Assembly: GCF_011302915.1 (NCBI RefSeq)
Contig: NZ_CP049872.1
Coordinates: 310,001-374,000 of the forward strand
Source of the DNA: Thermomonas sp. HDW16
Lineage (GTDB): Bacteria; Pseudomonadota; Gammaproteobacteria; Xanthomonadales; Xanthomonadaceae
Direction: 5' to 3'
Length of the DNA stretch: 64,000 nucleotides
Shown here: positions 2-12,279 of the stretch, piece by piece
Position numbering within the stretch: the first letter of the stretch is position 1
Layout of the letters: each line of letters begins with the position of its first letter
Program-made: the position numbers and the translations under genes
The notes under the pieces: model-generated
Databases searched by the model: none
The model's input: only the letters and a program-made list of their open reading frames with translations
What the model was told of the DNA's origin: nothing

Positions 2-3000
2 AGCGGCGACATCAGCGCAACCGCCTACATGGGCAATGCCTACGGCGTGCTGGCGGTGGCCGACAGCGGCAACGTGGCCATCACCAACAGTGCCGCCACC
101 ATCAATGCGTCCTCGACCTACGGCAACGCGTTCGGCCTGCAGGGCATCAGCACCGATGGTGCCGTGGACATCCACGCCAACGGTAACGGCGCCATCAACG
201 CCAGAACCTATTACGGCGATGCCGCCGGCATTTTCGCCGCCAGCACGGCAGGCGATGTCTACGTCTACAACAACACCTCGATCGATGCGTATAGCGTCTA
301 CGGCAACGCGACAGGCATCGATGCCTACAGCGATGCGGGCAGCGTCACCGTCAGCAACGTGGGCCCGATCAATGCCGATAGCGTCTATGGAAACGCGACC
401 GGCATCAACGCCTACAGCAATGCCGGCGATGTGCTGATCGGCAATGCCGGCGGTGTCGACGTGTACACCCGCTACGGTTCGGCGATCGGCCTGTACGGCT
501 ACAGCGGTACCGGCAACGTCACCATCAACAACAACGGCAACATCAGCGCCTATTCGTACGCGGGCCTGGCGGACGGCATCTTCGCCTCGGGCGCGGACAT
601 CACCATCACCAACTCCTCGGTATCGACGATCGGCGTCAACGGTACCGGCTGGGCCGCGGGCATCGAGGCGCGTGGCACGGGTACCGTCTCGGTCACCAAC
701 AACAACGGCGGCGAGATCTACGCGTATGCGTACGGGGCCGGTGGATTCGCAGCCGCCTACGGCATCTATGCCGCGGGTGCCGATGCCACCGTAGCCAACA
801 GTGGCCGGATCGAAGCGCAGGGCTATTACGCCACCGGCATCCGCACCCAGACCTATGGCGATGTCAGTGCCACCAACGACGGCAGCATCTACGCCGGCAC
901 CACCACCGACAGCGCGCTCGCCTGGGGTATCCGGGCGGAGGCGACGGGCGAAGGCGCAGCCATCACCATCGGCAACAGCGGCGACATCACGGCCGCGGCC
1001 GTCTATGGCGCCACCGGCATCGAAGCCGTGGCCAGCGGCCTTGGCGGCACCGCAAGCGTCACCAATACGGGCGACATCATCGTCACCCAGAATCGCGCGA
1101 TCACCAGTTACGGCGGCTATGGCGTGCTGGCGTCGGCGGACGGCGATTCGACCATCTACAACGATGGTGGCTATGTCGACGTGACCTCCAGGGGGCCGGC
1201 ATTCGGCCTGGCCAGCAATTCCTTCGCCGGCACCGCCAGCGTCACCAATACCGGCGATGTCTATGCCACCAGTACGTTGAGCTCGTCCGCCAATCCGTCG
1301 ATCGGCGCCACGGGACTCTTGGCGTTCTCGGGCAATGGCGACGCCTCGGTGGACAACAGCGGCAATGTGTACGCGCATGGCGTCAGGAGCAGCACCGGCA
1401 TCAGCGCTAGTGCCGGGGCGGACGGCAACGCGACGGTGACCAACAGCGGCGACATCGTGGCCACCACCAACGTGGCCAGCAACGCGCGTGCGAATGGCAT
1501 CAGGGTCGCGGCCGGCAACGGCAACATCGAGGTCGAGAACAGTGGCTCGATCTATGCCAGCGGCGCGATCCTGGCGTTCGGCATCTATTCGTCGAACACC
1601 GCCGGCGATACCCATCTCTACAACACGACGGATGGCGACATCGAGTTCTACTCCTATGCCGGACGGGGTTTCGGGGCATTCGCGTTCGCCGAACAGGGCG
1701 ACGTGAATTTCGAAAACGCCGGTTACATCCACGGCTACTCTTGGCAGCAGGCCTACGGCGCACGCGTGCGCGACCTGTATGGCGATGCATCGGCCAGCAA
1801 CAGCGGCTACATTGATATCGAAAGCGGCAACAACAGGGCGTTCGGCCTGTTGGCGGTGTCCCAGTACGCCGGTACGGCCAGCGTCAGCAACAGCTACGGC
1901 GGCTACATCAATGTGGTTGCAGCCACGGGTGCCTATGGCGCGCGCGTCTATGGCGTGGACGGCGCAAATGCGGACAACAGCGGGGAAATTCGCGCGAGCG
2001 GCGGTACCGCGGCGGTCGGCGTGATGGCCGACTCCGGTGGCGAAACAACGGCCAGCAATAGCGGTCGCATCGTCGCGAACGGCGACGCGGTGGCGATCGG
2101 CATGCTGGTGGCGGGTGACGCTGGCGCCACGGTGACCAACACCGGTGGCGTGATCTTCGCGTATTCGCAAGGTGGTACGGCCACCGGCATCGACGCAAGC
2201 TCCAGCGCCGGCGATGTCACGGTAACCAATGCCAGCAGCATCTATGCGATCAGTGCGTCCTCCAATGCGTATGCCGTGTCGGCCTACGGCTATGGCGATG
2301 TGGTTGTCGACAATGACGACTTCGTGTTGGCCTACTCGGGCGCCAACGGCAACGCGATCGGTCTGTACGCCTACAGCGTGGCCGGCAATGCAACGGTCAC
2401 CAACAGCGGCCAGGCCATCGCGAACGCCGCGGACGGCCTGGCCGATGGCATCTTCGCCTCGGGTGCGGATGTCACGATCGACAACTCGGGCGTGGCCATG
2501 GCGACCACGCACTACGGCGCATGGGCCGCGGGCATCGAGGCGCAGGGCACGGGTACCGTTTCGGTCGCCAATAGTGGCCAAGTGTATGGGAACACGTCCG
2601 AGGTGGGCGCACATGCGTACGGTATTTACGCCACCGGTGCGGATGTCACGGTCGCCAACAATGGTGGCCTGATTGCCGTCAGTGGCTATTACGCGACCGG
2701 CATCGAGGCCCAAAGCACCGGCGATGTCAGTGTTTCCAACACCGGCGCGGTGCTGGCCGGCTATAGCTATTTCGGCAGCAGCGAACTGGCTGTTGGCATC
2801 AACGCCTCGAGCAATGGCGAAGGCGCTTCGGTCACCGCGGACAATGGCGGCGATATCTATGCGGCCGGCACGTACGGCGGCACCGGCATTGCGGCGACGG
2901 CATCCGGCGCGGGCGGTACGGCCAGCATCACCAACACGGGCGATATCTACGCATCGCAGACCGGCAAGTACGGTTACGGCGCATACGGCATGGTGGCGTC

Positions 3001-6000
3001 GGCTGATGGCGACGCGACCGTGAACAACGATGGCGGCACGGTGGACGCGATCTCGCAGGGGGCCGCAAATGGCGCGGTGGCGCTGTCCTTCGCGGGCGAT
3101 GCCAGCGTCACCAATAGCGGCGATGTCACGGCAAGGAGCACGTATAGCCTGGAAGACACGGCCAATGGCCTCGTGGCGTTTGCCGGTTATGGCGATGCGC
3201 ATATCGACAACAGCGGTACGGTCAACGCGTCGAGCAAGTACTACTGGGCAACGGCGGCGGATGCGCGTGCGTTCGGCGACGTGGAGGTGACCAACAGCGG
3301 ATCGCTGTACGCCGATGGCCTGAAGTATGCGTTCGGCGTATATGCATCGGCCGGCACCGGCGACGTGAACGTCACCAATGAAGCCGACGGCGACATCGGG
3401 TTCTACTCGTACTACGGACGTGGCTGGGGCGTATTCGGGTTTGCGTCGCAGGGCGATGTGAACGTCACCAACGATGGCGTGATCGAGGGTTATGCCGCCG
3501 GCCAGTCGGCCGGCATCTTCGGTCGCGCGGCGCAGGGCGACGTGACGGTCGAGAGCAGTGGTTCGATCGGCGTGGTCAGCGGTGACAACGTGGCGCTTGG
3601 CGTGTTTGCTCGTGCCGACTACGGCACGGCCAGCGTCAACAACAGCGGCGACATCACTGCCAACGGTGGCTACGCGGCGTACGGCGTCTTCGCGCGCGGC
3701 GCATACGCCGATGTCAGCAACAGCGGCGATATCCTGGCCATAGGCTACAACTACGCCACCGGCATCTTCGCGGCGTCCGAATACGGCACCACGGTGACCA
3801 ATGCCGGCGGCAGCATTTCTGTGTATTCGCGCGGTGCCGCATACGGCATCGACGCACGCTCCAGCGGCGGCGATGTCACGGTGACCAATGCCAGTGACAT
3901 CGCTGCCTTTGGTCAGGATCTGGGTGCGTTCGGCATATCGGCGCAGGCTTATGGCGATGTGACGATCGACAACATTGGCGATGTCTACGCGTATTCGTAT
4001 GACGGCGATGCGACCGGCGTGTATGGCTATAGCGCGACCGGCGACGTCGCGATCACCAATAGCGCCGGCGTCGAGGCGTATTCGTACAACGGTACGGCGA
4101 TAGGCCTGAGTGGATACGCCGACGTTGGCGACGTCGCGATCACCAATAGCGGTGAAGTCAGGGCGGAATCCTATTACGGCCTTGCCGACGGCATTTTCGC
4201 CTCGGGCGCGGATGTAGCGGTCACCAGCTCGGGCACGATCAGCAGCTACGGCTATACCTGGTCCGCGGGCATCGAGGCGCAAGGCACCGGCATCGTGTCG
4301 GTCACCAACAGCGGCGGGATCTACGCGGTCGCTTACGACGCGGGTGCGCATGCCTATGGCATCTATGCCACGGGCGCGGACGTCACTGTCGCGAACACTG
4401 GCGATATCGAAGCGCAGGGCTACTACGCCACGGGCATCGAAGCGCAAAGCACCGGCGACGTGAGCGTCACCAATGACGGTGGCGTGGTGGCGGGCATGCC
4501 CTACACGTCGGCGCTGGCAACCGGCATCAACGCGTCGAGTAATGGCGAAGGTGCCTCGGTTACCGTGACCAGCAACGGCGATATCTCGGCGCAGGGTTAC
4601 TACGGCGGCACCGGCATTGCGGCGACGGCATCCGGCGCGGGCGGTACGGCCAGCATCACCAACACGGGCACGATCTACGCCTCCCAGTACAACAAGTACG
4701 GTTATGGCGCGTACGGCATCGTGGCTTCGGCCGATGGCGATGCGACGGTGGACAATGCCGGTGGCAGCATCGAGGTGTACTCGGCAGGCGTTGCCAACGG
4801 TGCGGTGGCGATGTCCTTCGCGGGCGACGCCAGCGTGACCAACAGCGGCGATGTCACCGTCGAAAGCACTGCGCTGCTGGACTACGCAGCGAGTGGTTTG
4901 GTGTCGTTCGCTGGGTATGGCAACGCGAATATCGACAACAGCGGCTCGGTGGACGTCACCAGCCCGTACTCGGCGACGGCGGCGGACGCGCGTGCGTTCG
5001 GCGACGCGAACGTGACCAACAGCGGATCGCTGTACGCCGATGGCCTGAAGTATGCGTTCGGCGTGTATGCAACGGCCGGCACCGGTGACGTCAACGTCAG
5101 CAATGAAGCCGACGGCGACATCGGGTTCTACTCGTACGTGGGCCGTGGCTGGGGCGTGTTCGGGTTTGCGTCGCAGGGCGACGTGAACGTGGCCAACGAA
5201 GGCATGATCGAGGGTTACGCCTATGGCCAGTCGGCCGGCATCTTCGGTCGCGCGGCGCAGGGCGACGTGACGATCGACAGCAGCGGTTCGATCGACGTAA
5301 CCAGTGGCGGTGACGTGGCGGTGGGCGCTTTCGCCCGCGCCGATTACGGCACGGCCAGCGTCAACAACAGCGGCGATATCACTGCCAGCGACTTCCCGGG
5401 CGGGGATTTCATCGGCGACACCGCGTACGGCATCTTCGCGCGTGGCATGTATGCCGATGCCAGCAATAGCGGCAGCATCGTGGCGGACGGTTACTACTAC
5501 GCCACCGGCATCTTCGCGACCTCGCTCGAAGGCACCACGGTGGCCAATACCGGCGGCAGCATCACGGCGACCGCCGAATATGGTGCAACCGGTATCGATG
5601 CGCGTTCTGCGGATGGCGATGTCACGGTGACCAATGCCGGCGATATCACCGCAACCACGACGGTCGACGGCACCGCTTACGGTATCTTTGCCCAGGGCAT
5701 CTATACCGACGTGGTCAATAGCGGCACGATCACTGCGGACGGCTACCCCTACGCCACCGGCATCGCGGCGCGTTCGGACGAAGGCACCTCGGTGCAGACG
5801 GCGGCGAGCAGTCAGATCGAGGTCACGGCACCAGTGGTGGCGATCGGCATCGAGTCCCGTTCCGAATACGGTGATGCGGTGGTCGGCAACGCCGGGGATA
5901 TCACCGCTACCGCCAACTATGGTGCGGTTGGCGTGCAGGCTTACAGCTACGCCGGCGACGTGATGGTCAACAGCAGTGGCCACGTCGACGCCAGCGCGGA

Positions 6001-8149
6001 CAGTGGCATCGCGCTTGGCCTCAGCGGCTACTCGTACTACGGCAATGCCTCGGTCGGCAACAGCGGCGATGTCACTGCGACGGGGTATGTCGGCGCTTAC
6101 GGCATCGTCACCCAGTCCTATGCGGGTGATGCCTCGGCCAGCAACACCGGCAGCATCCAAGCGAGCTCCGACCAGGTTGCAGCGGCGATTTTCGCCAGGG
6201 CCGAAGGCGACGTGACCATCGGCAACTCCGGCGAACTGACGGCGGACGCTTACGCCGCATACGGTATCGATGCGATGTCCTACACGGGCAACGTGACGAT
6301 CACCAACTCCGGCGACATCACCGCGACGGCAGCCGCTGGTGGATTCGCCGCGGCTGTGCAGATGCAGTCGGTCGACGGGCAAACCACGCTCAACAATGCG
6401 GGAAGCGGCAACATCCATGTGGATGCGGGCGCGTATGCCGTGGTCGGCGGCGATACCACCGATACGATCAACAACAGTGGCGACATCACGGGTTCGATCG
6501 CCTTGTACGGTGGCAATGACGTCATCAACAACGCGTTCGGCGGCACGATTTCGCTGGTTGGCGCGACCATCGACATGGGCGATGGCGACGATGCCGTCAA
6601 TACCGCGATCGGCAGCAACCTGGTGATGGATGGCGCCGCCATCTACATGGCCGGCGGTTCCGCGAACAGCTTCACGAACGCAGGTGTGATCGTCGTTCGC
6701 GGCGACACCAACCTGATCGACATGGGCGGCGGTACGCCTGCTCCTGCATTGGCGGCTTCGATTGCGTCGGCATTCAACCAGCCTGTCGCGATGTCGGTTT
6801 TCGCACCAACCGCGGTTCCCTCGCTCAACGCGATTCCGTTCATCAACAATGGCACGATCGATTTCGTCGATGGCGCGACCGATGATGTCCTCACGATCGT
6901 TGGCGACATGGGGGGTAGCGGCGCGCTCAATATCGACGTGAGCATGCTCAACCAGTCGGCCGACCAGCTGTACGTGGATGGCAGCATCGTCAGCGGTTCG
7001 AGCCAGGACGTGAACCTCACGTTGCAGGGCTTCCCGAACGGCACCGAGGATCCGATTCCGTTCGCGCATGTCAGCGGCAATTCGAGTGCCAGCTCGTTCG
7101 TGGACGGCCAGGTACTGGGCGTTTCGGTGGCCAACTTCCTGACCCTTGGCCTGACGGTCATCAGCGATATCGACACCACCAATGCCCGTGACGACGTGTT
7201 CTCGATCGGACTGGATGTCACTGGCTTGAGCGACGCGGGCACCTTGGGCGCGTCGTTGGCATCGGGTGCGGCTGGCTTCCTCAACAGCCAGATCGGTACC
7301 TTCCGCCAGCGTCTGGGCGTGAACCCATATGGCGATTCCGGCAAGGTGATGAGCGCCTTCTTCCGCGCCTATACCGACGATGGCGACGTGAATCCGACGC
7401 ATCAGGAAGTCAATTTCGGCGGCGATGGCAACTACGCCTACAACCAGACCAGCTGGGGCCGCGAGTTGGGCGTGAACGCCAACCTCTTCGGCAACTTCCA
7501 TGCAGGCGTGGTGCTGGGCAATGCTGATAGCCGGCAGCGGCTCACTGGCGATGGCCACGGCGAGAACCGCATGAGCGGTATGACGTGGGGCGCATATGCC
7601 ACGTGGTACGTGCCGCAAGGCTTCTACGTCGACCTGACCGGTCGCTGGATGGCCGCCGATGTCCGCTCCACGACATCTGCGGGGACGTTGACCGCGCGGG
7701 CACATACTTCCGCCGCCAGCATCGAAGCCGGTTACCAGTGGGCGTTCGGGAATGGCTTAATGGTGGTGCCGCAAGCGCAATACACCCGCACCAAGGTGGA
7801 CGGCATCAGCACCATCCACGGGCCGGACGTGGACTTCCAGGCCCACGGCGGTACTTTCTCGCGCGGTCGCCTTGGCGTTGAATTGAACAAGGCGTTCCAA
7901 GTGGGCGGGGCGACGATCACGCCTTACGGCTCGGTCAATGCGATCCGTGAATTCGATGGGGAGAGCACCTACACCATCGCGGGCAGGTACGACGGCAGCA
8001 CGGGCGTCAAGGGCACCAGCACCATGGTCGAGTTGGGCGTCGGCGCACACAAGGGCGCCTTCGACGTCACCATTGGTGCCAACTGGACCGATGGCGGCGC
8101 CATCGACAGTGGCCTTGGCGGGCAGGCGATCATCCGTTACGCCTGGTAA
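2..8149 (+). CDS. Giant autotransporter adhesin (type Va), 5' end outside window
   Basis: The reading frame is open to the left edge, so the N-terminus and signal peptide are missing; about 2,715 codons are visible. Almost all of it is short beta-helix-like rungs of about 20-25 residues with the pattern NSGDI-x-A...G-A-x-GI-x-A...GDV-x-V, rich in Gly, Ala, Ser, Asn, Tyr and Asp, and I found no cysteine. Three super-repeats begin at 563, 2435 and 4178. After about 6400 the rungs degenerate into a linker with GGND- and GDGDD-like turns. The last ~280 residues (from about 7290) have alternating aromatic/hydrophobic strands and end in R-Y-A-W, the terminal aromatic typical of an autotransporter beta-barrel. 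The protein should be an outer-membrane-anchored surface adhesin; its ligand cannot be told from sequence. The accessory-like genes just downstream suggest they serve this protein. Confidence 0.9.
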   Translation, partial: SGDISATAYMGNAYGVLAVADSGNVAITNSAATINASSTYGNAFGLQGISTDGAVDIHANGNGAINARTYYGDAAGIFAASTAGDVYVYNNTSIDAYSVYGNATGIDAYSDAGSVTVSNVGPINADSVYGNATGINAYSNAGDVLIGNAGGVDVYTRYGSAIGLYGYSGTGNVTINNNGNISAYSYAGLADGIFASGADITITNSSVSTIGVNGTGWAAGIEARGTGTVSVTNNNGGEIYAYAYGAGGFAAAYGIYAAGADATVANSGRIEAQGYYATGIRTQTYGDVSATNDGSIYAGTTTDSALAWGIRAEATGEGAAITIGNSGDITAAAVYGATGIEAVASGLGGTASVTNTGDIIVTQNRAITSYGGYGVLASADGDSTIYNDGGYVDVTSRGPAFGLASNSFAGTASVTNTGDVYATSTLSSSANPSIGATGLLAFSGNGDASVDNSGNVYAHGVRSSTGISASAGADGNATVTNSGDIVATTNVASNARANGIRVAAGNGNIEVENSGSIYASGAILAFGIYSSNTAGDTHLYNTTDGDIEFYSYAGRGFGAFAFAEQGDVNFENAGYIHGYSWQQAYGARVRDLYGDASASNSGYIDIESGNNRAFGLLAVSQYAGTASVSNSYGGYINVVAATGAYGARVYGVDGANADNSGEIRASGGTAAVGVMADSGGETTASNSGRIVANGDAVAIGMLVAGDAGATVTNTGGVIFAYSQGGTATGIDASSSAGDVTVTNASSIYAISASSNAYAVSAYGYGDVVVDNDDFVLAYSGANGNAIGLYAYSVAGNATVTNSGQAIANAADGLADGIFASGADVTIDNSGVAMATTHYGAWAAGIEAQGTGTVSVANSGQVYGNTSEVGAHAYGIYATGADVTVANNGGLIAVSGYYATGIEAQSTGDVSVSNTGAVLAGYSYFGSSELAVGINASSNGEGASVTADNGGDIYAAGTYGGTGIAATASGAGGTASITNTGDIYASQTGKYGYGAYGMVASADGDATVNNDGGTVDAISQGAANGAVALSFAGDASVTNSGDVTARSTYSLEDTANGLVAFAGYGDAHIDNSGTVNASSKYYWATAADARAFGDVEVTNSGSLYADGLKYAFGVYASAGTGDVNVTNEADGDIGFYSYYGRGWGVFGFASQGDVNVTNDGVIEGYAAGQSAGIFGRAAQGDVTVESSGSIGVVSGDNVALGVFARADYGTASVNNSGDITANGGYAAYGVFARGAYADVSNSGDILAIGYNYATGIFAASEYGTTVTNAGGSISVYSRGAAYGIDARSSGGDVTVTNASDIAAFGQDLGAFGISAQAYGDVTIDNIGDVYAYSYDGDATGVYGYSATGDVAITNSAGVEAYSYNGTAIGLSGYADVGDVAITNSGEVRAESYYGLADGIFASGADVAVTSSGTISSYGYTWSAGIEAQGTGIVSVTNSGGIYAVAYDAGAHAYGIYATGADVTVANTGDIEAQGYYATGIEAQSTGDVSVTNDGGVVAGMPYTSALATGINASSNGEGASVTVTSNGDISAQGYYGGTGIAATASGAGGTASITNTGTIYASQYNKYGYGAYGIVASADGDATVDNAGGSIEVYSAGVANGAVAMSFAGDASVTNSGDVTVESTALLDYAASGLVSFAGYGNANIDNSGSVDVTSPYSATAADARAFGDANVTNSGSLYADGLKYAFGVYATAGTGDVNVSNEADGDIGFYSYVGRGWGVFGFASQGDVNVANEGMIEGYAYGQSAGIFGRAAQGDVTIDSSGSIDVTSGGDVAVGAFARADYGTASVNNSGDITASDFPGGDFIGDTAYGIFARGMYADASNSGSIVADGYYYATGIFATSLEGTTVANTGGSITATAEYGATGIDARSADGDVTVTNAGDITATTTVDGTAYGIFAQGIYTDVVNSGTITADGYPYATGIAARSDEGTSVQTAASSQIEVTAPVVAIGIESRSEYGDAVVGNAGDITATANYGAVGVQAYSYAGDVMVNSSGHVDASADSGIALGLSGYSYYGNASVGNSGDVTATGYVGAYGIVTQSYAGDASASNTGSIQASSDQVAAAIFARAEGDVTIGNSGELTADAYAAYGIDAMSYTGNVTITNSGDITATAAAGGFAAAVQMQSVDGQTTLNNAGSGNIHVDAGAYAVVGGDTTDTINNSGDITGSIALYGGNDVINNAFGGTISLVGATIDMGDGDDAVNTAIGSNLVMDGAAIYMAGGSANSFTNAGVIVVRGDTNLIDMGGGTPAPALAASIASAFNQPVAMSVFAPTAVPSLNAIPFINNGTIDFVDGATDDVLTIVGDMGGSGALNIDVSMLNQSADQLYVDGSIVSGSSQDVNLTLQGFPNGTEDPIPFAHVSGNSSASSFVDGQVLGVSVANFLTLGLTVISDIDTTNARDDVFSIGLDVTGLSDAGTLGASLASGAAGFLNSQIGTFRQRLGVNPYGDSGKVMSAFFRAYTDDGDVNPTHQEVNFGGDGNYAYNQTSWGRELGVNANLFGNFHAGVVLGNADSRQRLTGDGHGENRMSGMTWGAYATWYVPQGFYVDLTGRWMAADVRSTTSAGTLTARAHTSAASIEAGYQWAFGNGLMVVPQAQYTRTKVDGISTIHGPDVDFQAHGGTFSRGRLGVELNKAFQVGGATITPYGSVNAIREFDGESTYTIAGRYDGSTGVKGTSTMVELGVGAHKGAFDVTIGANWTDGGAIDSGLGGQAIIRYAW
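563..5690 (+). repeat. Three tandem super-repeats within the adhesin gene
   Basis: Segments starting with a GLADGIFASGAD block recur at 563, 2435 and 4178, giving periods of 1872 and 1743 nt. Copies 2 and 3 are closest: 2873-2941 equals 4601-4669 over 69 nt, and 3287-3339 equals 5012-5064 over 53 nt. The first copy is more diverged but keeps the same block order, for example the DGDI-x-FYSY...GRG block at about 1635, 3390 and 5115. The right boundary is approximate because the third copy fades into shorter rungs. Confidence 0.85.
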
Positions 8150-8167
8150 TGACAACAAGCAACAGGC

Positions 8168-8192
8168 GCGGGCCCGGTCAATCCGGGCCCGC
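8168..8192 (+). terminator. GC-rich hairpin after the adhesin gene
   Basis: A perfect 10-bp stem (GCGGGCCCGG / CCGGGCCCGC) with a 5-nt loop lies 18 nt after the adhesin stop codon and 27 nt before the next start. No T-tract follows (TTGATCAAGC), so it may be a weak terminator, an attenuator that lowers expression of downstream genes, or an mRNA-stabilising stem. Confidence 0.5.
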
Positions 8193-8219
8193 TTGATCAA
8201 GCAAGACTCTGGAAGGCAC

Positions 8220-9422
8220 GTGACAAGCAATAAAACAAACGAAGAAGCACCGATCCAGGAAAACCAGGACAAGCAGGATCTCGATACAGGCCTTGATGCG
8301 GTTGCACCGGAACCGGCCAAGACGGAAGCCGCCAAGGATGCGGTCAGCAAGCCGCTGGACATCACCAAGCTGAAGGTTCAGAAGTCGTGCTCGCGCGGTC
8401 TTGCCTCATGGCTGGGGCAGCACCGGTTGTCCCTGGCGATCACGTCCTACCAGACCGGGCGGATCTACCTCGTCGGTAGCGATCAGAAGGGCCGGGTGTC
8501 GTTCTTCGAGCGTATCTTCGAGCGCGCCATGGGCGTGGTCGGCAATGCGCAGCGTATCTATCTGGGTGGGTTGTACCAACTGTGGCGGTTCGAGAACGTG
8601 TTGCGTCCGAACGAAGTCATCCACGGCCAGTTCGACAAGTGCTATGTCCCGCGCAACGCACAAACCATCGGCGATCTGGATATCCATGAGTTGGGTATCC
8701 GGAAAGATGGCAAGGTGGTGTTCGTCAACACCAAGTACTCCTGCCTTGCCGAGTTGAGCCAAACACACAGCTTCAAGGCGATCTGGAAGCCCAAGTTCAT
8801 CAGCAAACTGGCACCGGAGGATCGCTGCCACCTGAACGGGTTGGCGATGGTCGATGGTGAACCCAAGTACGTAACGGCCGTCTGCCGCAGCGACAGCGTG
8901 GATGGTTGGCGCGACCGACGCCAGGACGGTGGCGTGGTGATCGACGTGGAAACGGACGAGATCGTCTGCGAAGGGTTGTCGATGCCGCATTCGCCGCGTT
9001 GGCATAACGGCAAGCTGTGGGTGCTCAATGCGGGTACCGGCCAGCTCGGTTGGGTGGATTTTGAAAAGAAGGCCTTTGTCCCGCATGCGTTCGTACCGGG
9101 CTTCGCGCGGGGCTTGTCGATCATCGGCAATGTCGCGGCAGTGGGTCTGTCCAAGCCGCGCAACCAGCGTTTCGAGGGGTTGCAGCTGGATGAAGAGTTG
9201 AAAAAGCGGGATGCCGATCCTTGGTGTGGCGTGCAGATCATTTCGCTGACCAATGGCGATGTCATGAACTGGATTCGCTTCGAAGGCGATATTTCCGAGA
9301 TCTTCGACATCAGCTTCCTGCCCAATGTGAAAAATCCGATGATGATCGGTTTGCGCACAGCGGAAATCCGTGACCTGATCACGTTTGAATCCGAATTGCC
9401 GACGGAGGCATCAGCTTCATGA
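8220..9422 (+). CDS. TIGR03032/DUF4915-type protein, probable adhesin accessory protein
   Basis: A 400-residue protein. I chose the GTG start at 8220 because GGAAGG lies just upstream and the first 18 or so residues then look like a plain polar leader; the frame is open further upstream only inside the adhesin gene. The body (Q-K-S-C-S-R-G-L-A-S-W-L, then ...GRIYLVGSD..., DLDIHELG, KVVFVNTKYSCLA, LSMPHSPRW, LWVLNAGTGQLG) matches what I remember of the TIGR03032 family, which looks like a beta-propeller; its biochemical role is not known to me. No signal peptide is visible, so it is probably cytoplasmic. It ends by overlapping the EF-hand gene by 4 nt (ATGA), so the two are translationally coupled. 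Confidence 0.75.
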   Translation: MTSNKTNEEAPIQENQDKQDLDTGLDAVAPEPAKTEAAKDAVSKPLDITKLKVQKSCSRGLASWLGQHRLSLAITSYQTGRIYLVGSDQKGRVSFFERIFERAMGVVGNAQRIYLGGLYQLWRFENVLRPNEVIHGQFDKCYVPRNAQTIGDLDIHELGIRKDGKVVFVNTKYSCLAELSQTHSFKAIWKPKFISKLAPEDRCHLNGLAMVDGEPKYVTAVCRSDSVDGWRDRRQDGGVVIDVETDEIVCEGLSMPHSPRWHNGKLWVLNAGTGQLGWVDFEKKAFVPHAFVPGFARGLSIIGNVAAVGLSKPRNQRFEGLQLDEELKKRDADPWCGVQIISLTNGDVMNWIRFEGDISEIFDISFLPNVKNPMMIGLRTAEIRDLITFESELPTEASAS

Positions 9423-9901
9423 TTCACCGATCCTTCACCGCAAAAGTACTGCTGGCCGTATTGGCAACTTTCCCGCTTCATGTGCTGGCGCAAGTCCAGG
9501 TCCAGCAGGCGATGCCCGCGCCGAAGCCTGCGCAGGCGACGAAGCCCTTGTCGTCCAAACCGGCCGTGGATCCTGCTGCGGAAGCCTTCGGTGCATGGGA
9601 CAAGGATCGTAATGGCGCGCTCTCGTTTCCCGAATTCCGGGCCGGATGGGTGCAAGCGCAGCGCATGGCTGAACTGCAGGCGCGCCTACGCCATCAATTC
9701 ATGACCGTGGATGTAAACGACAACAAGGCGATCGACCCGGCGGAATACGGCAGTTTGCTGCTGATCAAGAATGCCGGTAAATCCGCGCCGCAGATGTCGG
9801 TCTTCGATGCGAACCGCGACGGCAAGCTGGAATTCAACGAATACGTGAAGCTCGTGGGCACGTTGGCACCGAAGGATTCCGGCAAGGGTGCCGCCAAGTG
9901 A
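9419..9901 (+). CDS. Secreted EF-hand calcium-binding protein
   Basis: A 160-residue protein with a Sec signal peptide (cleavage likely after HVLA, residue 24) and a Pro/Ala/Gln-rich linker. Three EF-hand loops follow: residues 61-72 (DKDRNGALSFPE) and 130-141 (DANRDGKLEFNE) are canonical, while 98-109 has Lys instead of Gly at loop position 6. It should be periplasmic or exported and bind calcium. It overlaps the gene before (ATGA) and the gene after (GTGA) by 4 nt each, so three proteins are made as one unit. A partner role with the adhesin next door is inference. Confidence 0.85.
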   Translation: MIHRSFTAKVLLAVLATFPLHVLAQVQVQQAMPAPKPAQATKPLSSKPAVDPAAEAFGAWDKDRNGALSFPEFRAGWVQAQRMAELQARLRHQFMTVDVNDNKAIDPAEYGSLLLIKNAGKSAPQMSVFDANRDGKLEFNEYVKLVGTLAPKDSGKGAAK

Positions 9902-10485
9902 AGATATCCATTGCGCCGGTCTGGAAGGAAATGACGCCGGATCTCGTCGAAGAGTTGGTCGATTTCTGGCGTGACAACAAGGCGATCGAAGATCCGGCCA
10001 TTGCCAAGCGTCGTGCCGCGCAAGTTGTCTGCATTGCCCGGGACGAAAACGGCGCGTTGTGCGGCGTTGGTACCGCACTCATCAAGGTGTTGCCGAGGCT
10101 TCGCCAGCCGATGTACTACTACCGGCAATTCTTCGCCAAGGCACTTCGTGGCCAACACCAGGAACTTGCGTTCTATCAACAATGCAAGCAAGTCTTGCAG
10201 GGATACAACCAGGGCCTGAAAAAGCCGGAAAGTCTCGGTCTTCTGGTGGAAGTTGAGAACAGCAAGATCGCGGCTGCGTACAAGCGGGCATACGAACCCA
10301 GTTTCGACGCAACCTTCATCGGATACTCGCCCCGGGGATTGCAGTTGAGGGTGTCCTATTTCGATGATGCCCAATTGTTGATACCGGTACCGCTGCGCAA
10401 GCAAGGGCCGGCAGCACGCGGTACCGCGCAACACGATCCAGCTCATGTCACACCCGCAACCCGGCGCGGCAAAGGCCGGTCCTGA
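9898..10485 (+). CDS. Small acetyltransferase-like protein, function unknown
   Basis: A 195-residue soluble protein starting at GTG 9898, overlapping the EF-hand stop codon by 4 nt; an ATG at 9931 with upstream GGAAGG is an alternative start. Segments such as KISIAPVWKEMTPDLVEELVDFW, VVCIARDENGALCGVGTA and SLGLLVEVEN...AAAYKRAYEP resemble strands and helices of a GNAT fold (alpha1, beta4, beta5), but no clear acetyl-CoA pyrophosphate loop (Q/R-x-x-G-x-G/A) can be seen. The ~30 C-terminal residues are basic and look disordered. It ends 19 nt before the M4 protease gene. If a real GNAT, it could modify the adhesin or its partners; this is inference. Confidence 0.5.
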   Translation: MKISIAPVWKEMTPDLVEELVDFWRDNKAIEDPAIAKRRAAQVVCIARDENGALCGVGTALIKVLPRLRQPMYYYRQFFAKALRGQHQELAFYQQCKQVLQGYNQGLKKPESLGLLVEVENSKIAAAYKRAYEPSFDATFIGYSPRGLQLRVSYFDDAQLLIPVPLRKQGPAARGTAQHDPAHVTPATRRGKGRS

Positions 10486-10504: not shown

Positions 10505-12130
10505 ATGAAAGTCCAGATGTCTTTGTTGAGCCTCGCCATCGTCTCCGGACTGGCCATGTCGGGTTCCGCGGATGCGGCCGGCAACCTGAAGTCCGCTGCC
10601 ATCACCCGCGCAAATGCGCTGATTGCCGGTCCTGCGGCAGCTAACGTCCGCCGTGCGAATGCCGATACCTTTGTTGCCCGCGATGTCGTGATCGATGCCA
10701 ACGGCACCGAGAACGTACGCTACCAACGCAATTACCAGGGCTTGCCGGTGATCGGCGGCGACTTCGTGGTGCAATCGCGCAATGGCAAGGTCGGCAAGAT
10801 CAGCCAGACCCTGCGCAGCGCGGCGCGTCCGTCGCTGAAGCCGGTCGTGAGCGCCGACCAGGCCATCGTTGAAGCGGGTAGTCGCTTCGGCAGTCATTTC
10901 CAGGGTGCGCCCAGCTCTCGCCTGGTGGTGTACGCACGCGACGTCGCGCCAGTACTCGCGCATGAAGTCGTGTTCAAGGGCATCAAGGCCGACCAGACGC
11001 CGACCGAAATGCACTATTTCGTCGATGCACGCAGTGGTCGCGTCCTGAACCAGTGGGATACGGTGCAGACCGCGCGTCCGGGCCCGGGCGGCGGCGGTTG
11101 CACGGGAGCCGCCCCGGCGGTCGGTACCGGTAACTCGCTGACAGAAGGGGCTGTGACGCTGGATACTACCAAGTGCGGCACGACCTACCAGATGGTAGAC
11201 ACGACCCGTGGCGGTGGCGCGACGCACAACATGGCGATGAAGACCTCTGGCATGGGTTCCGTGTTCACGGGTTCCACCAATGTCTGGGGCAATGGCCTGC
11301 TCAGCAATGCGCAGACCGTTGCGGCCGATGCCCATTACGGCGTGGCGACGACTTGGGATTATTTCCTGAACATCCACGGCCGCGATGGCATCGCCGGTGA
11401 TGGTCAGGGCGCTGTCAGCCGCGTGCACTACGGTCGCAACTACCAGAATGCGTTCTGGAACGACAACTGCTTCTGCATGACCTTTGGTGATGGCGACAAT
11501 GGTGCAAGCATCTTCCCGTTGATCGCGCTGGATGTCGCCGGCCACGAGATGTCGCATGGCGTGACCAGTCGCTCCGCAGGCCTTGTCTATAGCGGCGAAT
11601 CCGGCGGTCTGAATGAAGCGACTTCGGATATCTTCGGCACCATGGTCGAGTACTACGCCAACAACAGCAACGACCCGGCGGATTACGTCATCGGCGAAGA
11701 GCTGTTCCCCAACAATGCCGCGATGAACAACGCGATCCGCTGGATGTTCAAGCCCAGCCTGGACGGCGCGTCGCCGGATTGTTATTCCAGTGGTCTGGGC
11801 AACCTGGACGTCCACTACAGCTCGGGCGTCGCCAACCATTTCTACTATCTCTTGGCGGAAGGCGCAGTGGTCCCGACCGGTTTTGGTGCCGGTACCTGGG
11901 CCAACCTGACCACGGCTTCGATGGTCTGCAACGGCAATACCGCAATCACCGGTATCGGCCGCGATGCCGCCAGCAAGATCTGGTATCGCGCTTTGACCGT
12001 CTACATGACATCCGGCACCAACTACGCCGGTGCTCGTGATGCCACATTGGCTGCGGCAGCGGATCTGGGCTATTCGACCACAGCCGTGGAGAACGCCTGG
12101 AATGCAGTGGGCGTCGTGGCAGCGCCGTAG
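10505..12130 (+). CDS. Secreted M4 (thermolysin-type) metalloprotease precursor
   Basis: A 541-residue preproprotein. The ATG at 10505 is preferred over an upstream in-frame ATG at 10445 because it has GGAG 8 nt upstream and gives a clean signal peptide (MKVQMSLLSL...ADA). An FTP/PepSY-type propeptide follows to about residue 200, then the catalytic domain. Zinc ligands are H347 and H351 of HEMSH and E371 in GGLNEATSD, with the same 20-residue spacing as thermolysin; E348 is the general base, and H437 in DVHYSSGVANH matches the transition-state His. No C-terminal PPC domain is present. Secretion is probably by Sec and the type II system. A terminator follows. It lies 19 nt after the acetyltransferase-like gene and may be co-transcribed with it. 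Confidence 0.95.
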   Translation: MKVQMSLLSLAIVSGLAMSGSADAAGNLKSAAITRANALIAGPAAANVRRANADTFVARDVVIDANGTENVRYQRNYQGLPVIGGDFVVQSRNGKVGKISQTLRSAARPSLKPVVSADQAIVEAGSRFGSHFQGAPSSRLVVYARDVAPVLAHEVVFKGIKADQTPTEMHYFVDARSGRVLNQWDTVQTARPGPGGGGCTGAAPAVGTGNSLTEGAVTLDTTKCGTTYQMVDTTRGGGATHNMAMKTSGMGSVFTGSTNVWGNGLLSNAQTVAADAHYGVATTWDYFLNIHGRDGIAGDGQGAVSRVHYGRNYQNAFWNDNCFCMTFGDGDNGASIFPLIALDVAGHEMSHGVTSRSAGLVYSGESGGLNEATSDIFGTMVEYYANNSNDPADYVIGEELFPNNAAMNNAIRWMFKPSLDGASPDCYSSGLGNLDVHYSSGVANHFYYLLAEGAVVPTGFGAGTWANLTTASMVCNGNTAITGIGRDAASKIWYRALTVYMTSGTNYAGARDATLAAAADLGYSTTAVENAWNAVGVVAAP

Positions 12131-12151: not shown

Positions 12152-12181
12152 AACGGCCCGCGAAAGCGGGCCGTTTCTTTT
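12152..12181 (+). terminator. Intrinsic terminator after the M4 protease gene
   Basis: A perfect 10-bp stem AACGGCCCGC / GCGGGCCGTT with GAAA loop is followed by TCTTTT, beginning 22 nt after the stop codon. Confidence 0.92.
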
Positions 12182-12202: not shown

Positions 12203-12279
12203 TGGCGCGCCCGGAGGGATTCGAACCCCCGACCAATGGCTTCGGAAGCCACTACTCTATCCGGCTGAGCTACGGGCGC
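12203..12279 (-). tRNA. tRNA-Arg (anticodon CCG)
   Basis: On the minus strand the acceptor stem GCGCCCG pairs with CGGGCGC, with G discriminator and an encoded CCA (12203-12205). The D arm, the TTCGAAT T-loop and a 7-nt anticodon loop TTCCGAA are all present, giving anticodon CCG, which reads CGG. It lies alone, opposite in direction to the flanking genes. Confidence 0.96.

Follow-up and report, generated by a model that had tools for sequence, protein, structure and literature searches.

The genes that follow a giant autotransporter adhesin at one edge of the analysed DNA are best interpreted as a maturation cassette for that adhesin, in which a protein of the TIGR03032/DUF4915 family would be a cytoplasmic enzyme, or the core of one, working with a partner of GNAT fold; we assign to this interpretation a probability of about one half. 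The DNA (hereafter the window) is a stretch of 64,000 nucleotides, positions 310001-374000 of a single-contig genome of 2.80 Mb. In the best reading, the cassette would be the autotransporter form of a cytoplasmic module that modifies giant repeat proteins destined for export: the DUF4915 propeller would act in the cytoplasm together with the GNAT-fold protein, chemically modifying the repeat passenger before export, and, once export is complete, an EF-hand protein would serve as a calcium binder close to the passenger and an M4 peptidase would trim the passenger or a partner; elsewhere the same core would serve FG-GAP/RTX proteins, apparently substrates of type I secretion, its partner enzyme being swapped or fused. 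The observations concern gene order, linkage, fusions, predicted folds and residue invariance, from which we infer the site of action, the catalysis, the adhesin as substrate and the order of the steps.

The adhesin frame runs without a stop from the window edge as far as position 8149 (2..8149, plus strand), its N-terminal part lying beyond the edge; the genome sequence places the start of the gene about 600 nt upstream of the window, at a likely ATG near -598, and this start resembles a signal peptide by eye (basic, then hydrophobic). On the same strand there follow a hairpin with a perfect 10-bp GC stem and no U tract (8168..8192), the gene for the DUF4915 protein (400 residues, 8220..9422), those for the EF-hand protein (160 residues, 9419..9901) and the GNAT-fold protein (195 residues, 9898..10485), the gene for a secreted M4 metallopeptidase (10505..12130, starting at ATG 10505) and a second, terminator-like hairpin of 10 bp followed by TCTTTT (12152..12175), which is likely to mark the end of the transcript. 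The initial annotation had described three genes coupled by 4-nt overlaps, and both overlaps are present in the sequence, ATGA at 9419-9422 between the DUF4915 and EF-hand genes and GTGA at 9898-9901 between the EF-hand and GNAT-fold genes; the three cassette genes are therefore tightly coupled with one another, the adhesin not being coupled to them by overlaps. That gene set had missed the M4 peptidase, whose gene begins 19 nt past the end of the GNAT-fold gene, and the hairpin between adhesin and cassette. The first ATG of the DUF4915 frame, at 7938, falls within the adhesin, and the start is most likely the GTG at 8220, with AAGG ahead of it at 8213-8216. Directly behind the end of the cassette lies a tRNA-Arg gene on the minus strand (12203-12279). 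The minus strand also carries, at 2-7705, an open frame of 2568 residues mirroring the adhesin, which is probably a by-product of the base composition of the repeats and no gene.

The passenger of the adhesin consists of repeats rich in Gly, Ala, Ser and Asn; a tandem-repeat search did not find an array, and the whole frame of 2706 residues gave no match to Pfam or NCBIfam at E 0.1. The C-terminal barrel (7157-8146), excised by hand and scanned alone, matched PF03797 with 88.3 bits (cut-off 26) and TIGR01414 with 93 bits (cut-off 16), and thus has the C-terminal beta-domain of type Va autotransporters.

The association of this adhesin with the cassette recurs in relatives. Of 276 loci with a DUF4915 relative, the best 80 were examined, and the 57 closest (L002-L058), mostly Lysobacterales by title and some of them sharing a genome, form the close group. 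Here an adhesin barrel lies upstream of DUF4915, on the same strand and within 3.5 kb, in all of the 51 loci that offer 1.5 kb of room or more; an EF-hand gene comes after DUF4915 in 45 of 55 loci (not found in 10), a GNAT-like gene is present in 36 of 54 and inverted in three more (not found in 15), and an M4 gene follows in 24 of the 52 loci with room. The expectation that autotransporter, EF-hand protein and small protein would recur together was thus borne out in the close group, and the situation named as refuting it, homologues found mostly away from repeat adhesins, did not arise there. When the loci are restricted to the 41 with a length of 20.5 kb or more, the barrel is found near DUF4915, on either strand, in 41, the EF-hand gene in 32, the GNAT-like gene in 29 and the M4 gene in 19; the ten genes flanking the window's set, taken as a control, occur anywhere in only 0-10 of these 41 loci, so that the linkage is not explained by inheritance of the region as a whole. 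The linkage of adhesin and cassette is not due to chance. When the genomes of relatives are considered (119 in all), 46 contain a match to DUF4915, 32 to the barrel and 31 to the third, GNAT-like gene; the 23 genomes whose barrel match falls below 1e-70 all have one such barrel no more than 370 nt away from DUF4915, and 30 of the 31 genomes with the third gene also have DUF4915 (Fisher p 2e-15, uncorrected for kinship). In one genome (G016; L159, L160) three adhesins score equally for the barrel; one of them is adjacent to DUF4915 and the other two lie elsewhere. The short gap between adhesin and DUF4915 often contains a hairpin: stems of 7-13 bp are present in 36 of 43 such gaps (the window's included; 25-450 nt, with the adhesin stop confirmed and the barrel complete), compared with 160 of 2150 mononucleotide shuffles, and the hairpin of the window is one of five with a stem of at least 9 bp in the 64 kb. 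These hairpins are GC-rich and differ in sequence between loci (window and L002-L058), and they may act as partial terminators keeping the amount of the cassette products below that of the adhesin.

The DUF4915 protein passes both curated cut-offs of its family, matching PF16261 with E 1e-133 and 445.9 bits (cut-off 35) and TIGR03032 with E 1.7e-128 and 428.3 bits (cut-off 251.5); no other Pfam family was matched, and the closest named relatives of the gene, among the matches listed, are from Thermomonas. A full-text search of the open-licence literature found no paper naming TIGR03032/DUF4915, and the family seems to be unstudied. The predicted model is a six-bladed beta-propeller with a long disordered N-terminus. 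It belongs to the same fold class as the SGL, strictosidine-synthase and YWTD six-bladed propellers, and SGL is the best profile match among three families tested (47-69%), no match being strong enough to place DUF4915 in any of them. In all of 143 sequences, down to 32% identity, a His on each of three successive blades and then an Arg are invariant, and the invariant side chains include His, Arg, Cys, Asn and Asp; the window protein has D201-x-x-H204-x-N206 and H257. In the model, this polar set is placed where the central pocket of the propeller lies. The N-terminus is hydrophilic and no signal peptide is visible by eye, and for this reason the protein should act in the cytoplasm.

The EF-hand protein matches EF-hand_1 (E 2.6e-12) and EF-hand_6 (E 3.3e-10), with 45.8 bits against PF00036 (cut-off 25.4), and shows by eye three loops and a signal-peptide-like start; the M4 peptidase has both catalytic domains (PF01447, 152.4 bits, cut-off 22.4; PF02868, 162.2 bits, cut-off 24.4), an FTP propeptide motif and, by eye, a signal-like start. 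Given these export signals, both proteins would act after export. The third protein of the cassette (9898-10485) matches nothing in Pfam or NCBIfam at E 0.1, and its predicted model has a GNAT fold. The acetyl-CoA loop motif of the GNAT superfamily is R/Q-x-x-G-x-G/A; at the place in the alignment where the loop is expected, the window protein and its relatives have a variable, RGQxQ-like sequence, and the cofactor loop looks degenerate. In another family of the order, a relative of this protein, 33% identical to it (L083:1902-2474), adjoins an opposite-strand DUF4915 frame of 744 residues (2514-4745), the first 400 residues of which have no Pfam match.

The distribution of DUF4915 in more distant bacteria was followed in 89 further loci, comprising outgroups of the best 80, loci from further families of the order, samples taken at class and phylum level from Pseudomonadota, and 20 loci from Cyanobacteria; the count leaves out L063, a member of the close group, L098, which lies upstream of the window, L099, which is on one contig with L079, L111, where the gene is broken, and L112, which gave no match. 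In 32 of these loci an autotransporter or an FG-GAP/RTX frame is found no further than 1 kb from DUF4915; in the other 57 both an autotransporter barrel and such a frame are lacking within that distance, and several of 18 distant loci inspected sit among ordinary genes. The family is not confined to adhesins of this kind. An FG-GAP/RTX frame, recognised by motif, is found within 1 kb in 26 of the 89 loci, as against 146 of 3834 probes placed at other positions of these loci; the autotransporter barrels detected number six, all within 430 nt (L062, L064, L066, L092, L093 and L145, of which L092 and L093 belong to one genome). These loci are not all independent, since L068, L069, L075 and L077 have flanks in common. 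Pfam confirmed FG-GAP and RTX repeats beside DUF4915 in L067, L081, L114 and L136 and autotransporter domains in L062 and L066, and in L067 the second gene encodes a Calx-beta giant. The recurrent neighbours within 6 kb, counted over 91 loci and identified by a scan of one member each, are an ABC exporter (12 loci), an HlyD-like protein (5), a TolC-like protein (4) and a TPR protein with a GT41 domain (8, two of them on the same contig); another kind of exporter is therefore among the neighbours of DUF4915 elsewhere, which points to a step before secretion. The cyanobacterial FG-GAP/RTX protein beside DUF4915 in L114 (3704-7933) also has a reprolysin-type peptidase domain.

The clearest hint at the function of DUF4915 comes from its fusion partners. 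In Cyanobacteria, 16 of 43 near-full-length DUF4915 matches lie in frames of at least 690 residues. Twenty-three long DUF4915 frames were scanned, and 15 of them carry an enzyme domain: GNAT in seven (L232-L236, L240 and L104), accompanied in L232-L236 by TPR repeats and GT41; GT41 in six, including L238 (TPR and GT41); GT2 with TPR in two (L237, L242); GT9, barely above cut-off, with TPR in three (L239, L243, L108); and an Asp/Asn hydroxylase with a sulfotransferase domain in two (L082, L084). TPR repeats alone are found in L103, L105, L107, L241 and L086, TPR with a sub-cut-off GT9 in L087, and no domain beside DUF4915 in L083 and L085. Two of the DUF4915-GNAT fusions adjoin FG-GAP frames, L240 at a distance of 25 nt and L104 being directly followed by one. 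The pair encoded by two genes in the window cassette therefore also exists as a single polypeptide. A single subfamily of the window's GNAT protein and the fused GNAT domains is not supported, as they have the same fold class and no detectable common sequence family; free relatives of the fused domains were not found within 6 kb of DUF4915 in the 91 loci. Beside the DUF4915 gene of L151, on the same strand, lies a gene for a PKHD-type 2OG-Fe(II) oxygenase (9303-9977), another link with hydroxylases.

In view of how frequent these enzyme fusions are, and of the active-site-like centre of the propeller, the likeliest role of DUF4915 is to modify the repeat protein chemically, in concert with the GNAT protein. 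The initial annotation had suggested a set that might mature, modify or stabilise the adhesin; the modifying role gains weight from the fusions with GNAT, glycosyltransferase, hydroxylase and sulfotransferase domains, the set as drawn having been incomplete without the M4 peptidase. A wider and more tentative proposal, to which we give somewhat less than an even chance, would make DUF4915 the central part of a class of protein-modifying enzymes not yet described, which in Pseudomonadota, Cyanobacteria and Planctomycetes would act on giant repeat proteins irrespective of the route of export (type V or type I secretion). Its propeller, centred on three His residues, would partner an acyltransferase, a glycosyltransferase, a hydroxylase or a sulfotransferase, either as separate genes of a cassette, as in the window, or within a single polypeptide that can reach about 1,800 residues, as in cyanobacteria.

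The same fusions might be accounted for if DUF4915 were a dedicated cytoplasmic chaperone or escort, holding the repeat region fit for export with no chemical change, and the fused enzymes used the propeller as a substrate-binding arm. Propellers are common as binding platforms, and indeed the best structural matches of the model are binding propellers such as the YWTD receptors; the long disordered N-terminus and the association with proteins of different export routes are also consistent with an escort. Nevertheless, that His, Arg, Cys, Asn and Asp side chains stay unchanged over so divergent a set of sequences exceeds what the surface binding of very different repeats would need, and we regard this explanation as rather unlikely.

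Still more doubtful is the proposal that the adhesin is a mere neighbour, the set being co-located with it for co-regulation or a calcium response and acting on another target, such as a surface polysaccharide or another exported protein. It draws on the many distant DUF4915 genes with no giant protein nearby and on the hairpin that parts adhesin from cassette in 36 of 43 gaps. Against a mere neighbour, the set stays with the adhesin and the flanking genes do not, and giant proteins of other, unrelated kinds are found in the same association.

A special form of the modification reading would have DUF4915 act like the PAPS-independent aryl sulfotransferases, through a transient sulfo-histidine in the centre of the propeller. 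According to the available part of PMC13426309, the aryl sulfotransferase EcAST is a six-bladed propeller with active-site residues His252, His356, Asn358, Arg374 and His436; it shares with DUF4915 the (for DUF4915, predicted) six-bladed propeller, the order of the central His residues and the D-x-x-H-x-N motif, and it differs in an N-terminal beta-sandwich, of which DUF4915 has none. Membership of the aryl sulfotransferase family was rejected, hhalign giving 1-3% and Pfam no such match, and the likeness is kept as a mechanistic analogy; aryl sulfotransferases are absent from the fold-match lists of DUF4915, an absence that proves nothing. Tyrosine is abundant in the DUF4915-linked passengers of the close group, with a median of 4.75% and a range of 2.0-9.8 (n=48, frames shorter than 900 residues left out; 0.3-9.8 over 51 passengers when these are included), compared with 1.6-1.8% in four unlinked passengers (six regions taken, two without a usable frame); as a general target it was rejected in view of the 1.3-1.5% found in five DUF4915-linked autotransporters of other groups. 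The sulfotransferase-like mechanism is very improbable. In its favour, DUF4915 has His residues on three successive blades and, with D201-x-x-H204-x-N206 and then H257, follows the aryl sulfotransferase order, and two DUF4915 frames also hold a sulfotransferase domain; against it stand a profile probability below that for SGL propellers and a richness in Tyr that is not general.

Dedicated modification of adhesins is already known. The TibC heptosyltransferase modifies the autotransporters TibA and AIDA-I, and systems of this type resemble the cassette, as far as the accessible part of PMC4358343 describes them, in having one or more genes dedicated to a large autotransporter and a modification thought to precede function; TibC is a glycosyltransferase, whereas DUF4915 is modelled as a propeller and has GNAT, EF-hand and M4 proteins as partners. 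The HMW1C-type GT41 enzymes are, in the portion of PMC3012730 available, dedicated adhesin glycosyltransferases; GT41 domains are fused to DUF4915 or lie beside it in cyanobacteria and others, and no GT41 homologue was found in the window, in its upstream flank (L098) or in the 57 close loci at 1e-5. The cassette proteins match no glycosyltransferase family in Pfam or NCBIfam, and in this respect the cassette is not of the TibC or HMW1C type; neither of these types is a propeller-plus-GNAT cassette, and there is a fair chance that DUF4915 represents a new enzyme class.

Giant surface proteins drive attachment and the formation of biofilms, and little is known of how cells make polypeptides of 2,000-3,000 residues ready for export. 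TIGR03032/DUF4915, a widespread family without a name of its own, accompanies such giant proteins and is found joined to modifying enzymes of several kinds; it bears on this step, and the reading proposed here would give it a function.
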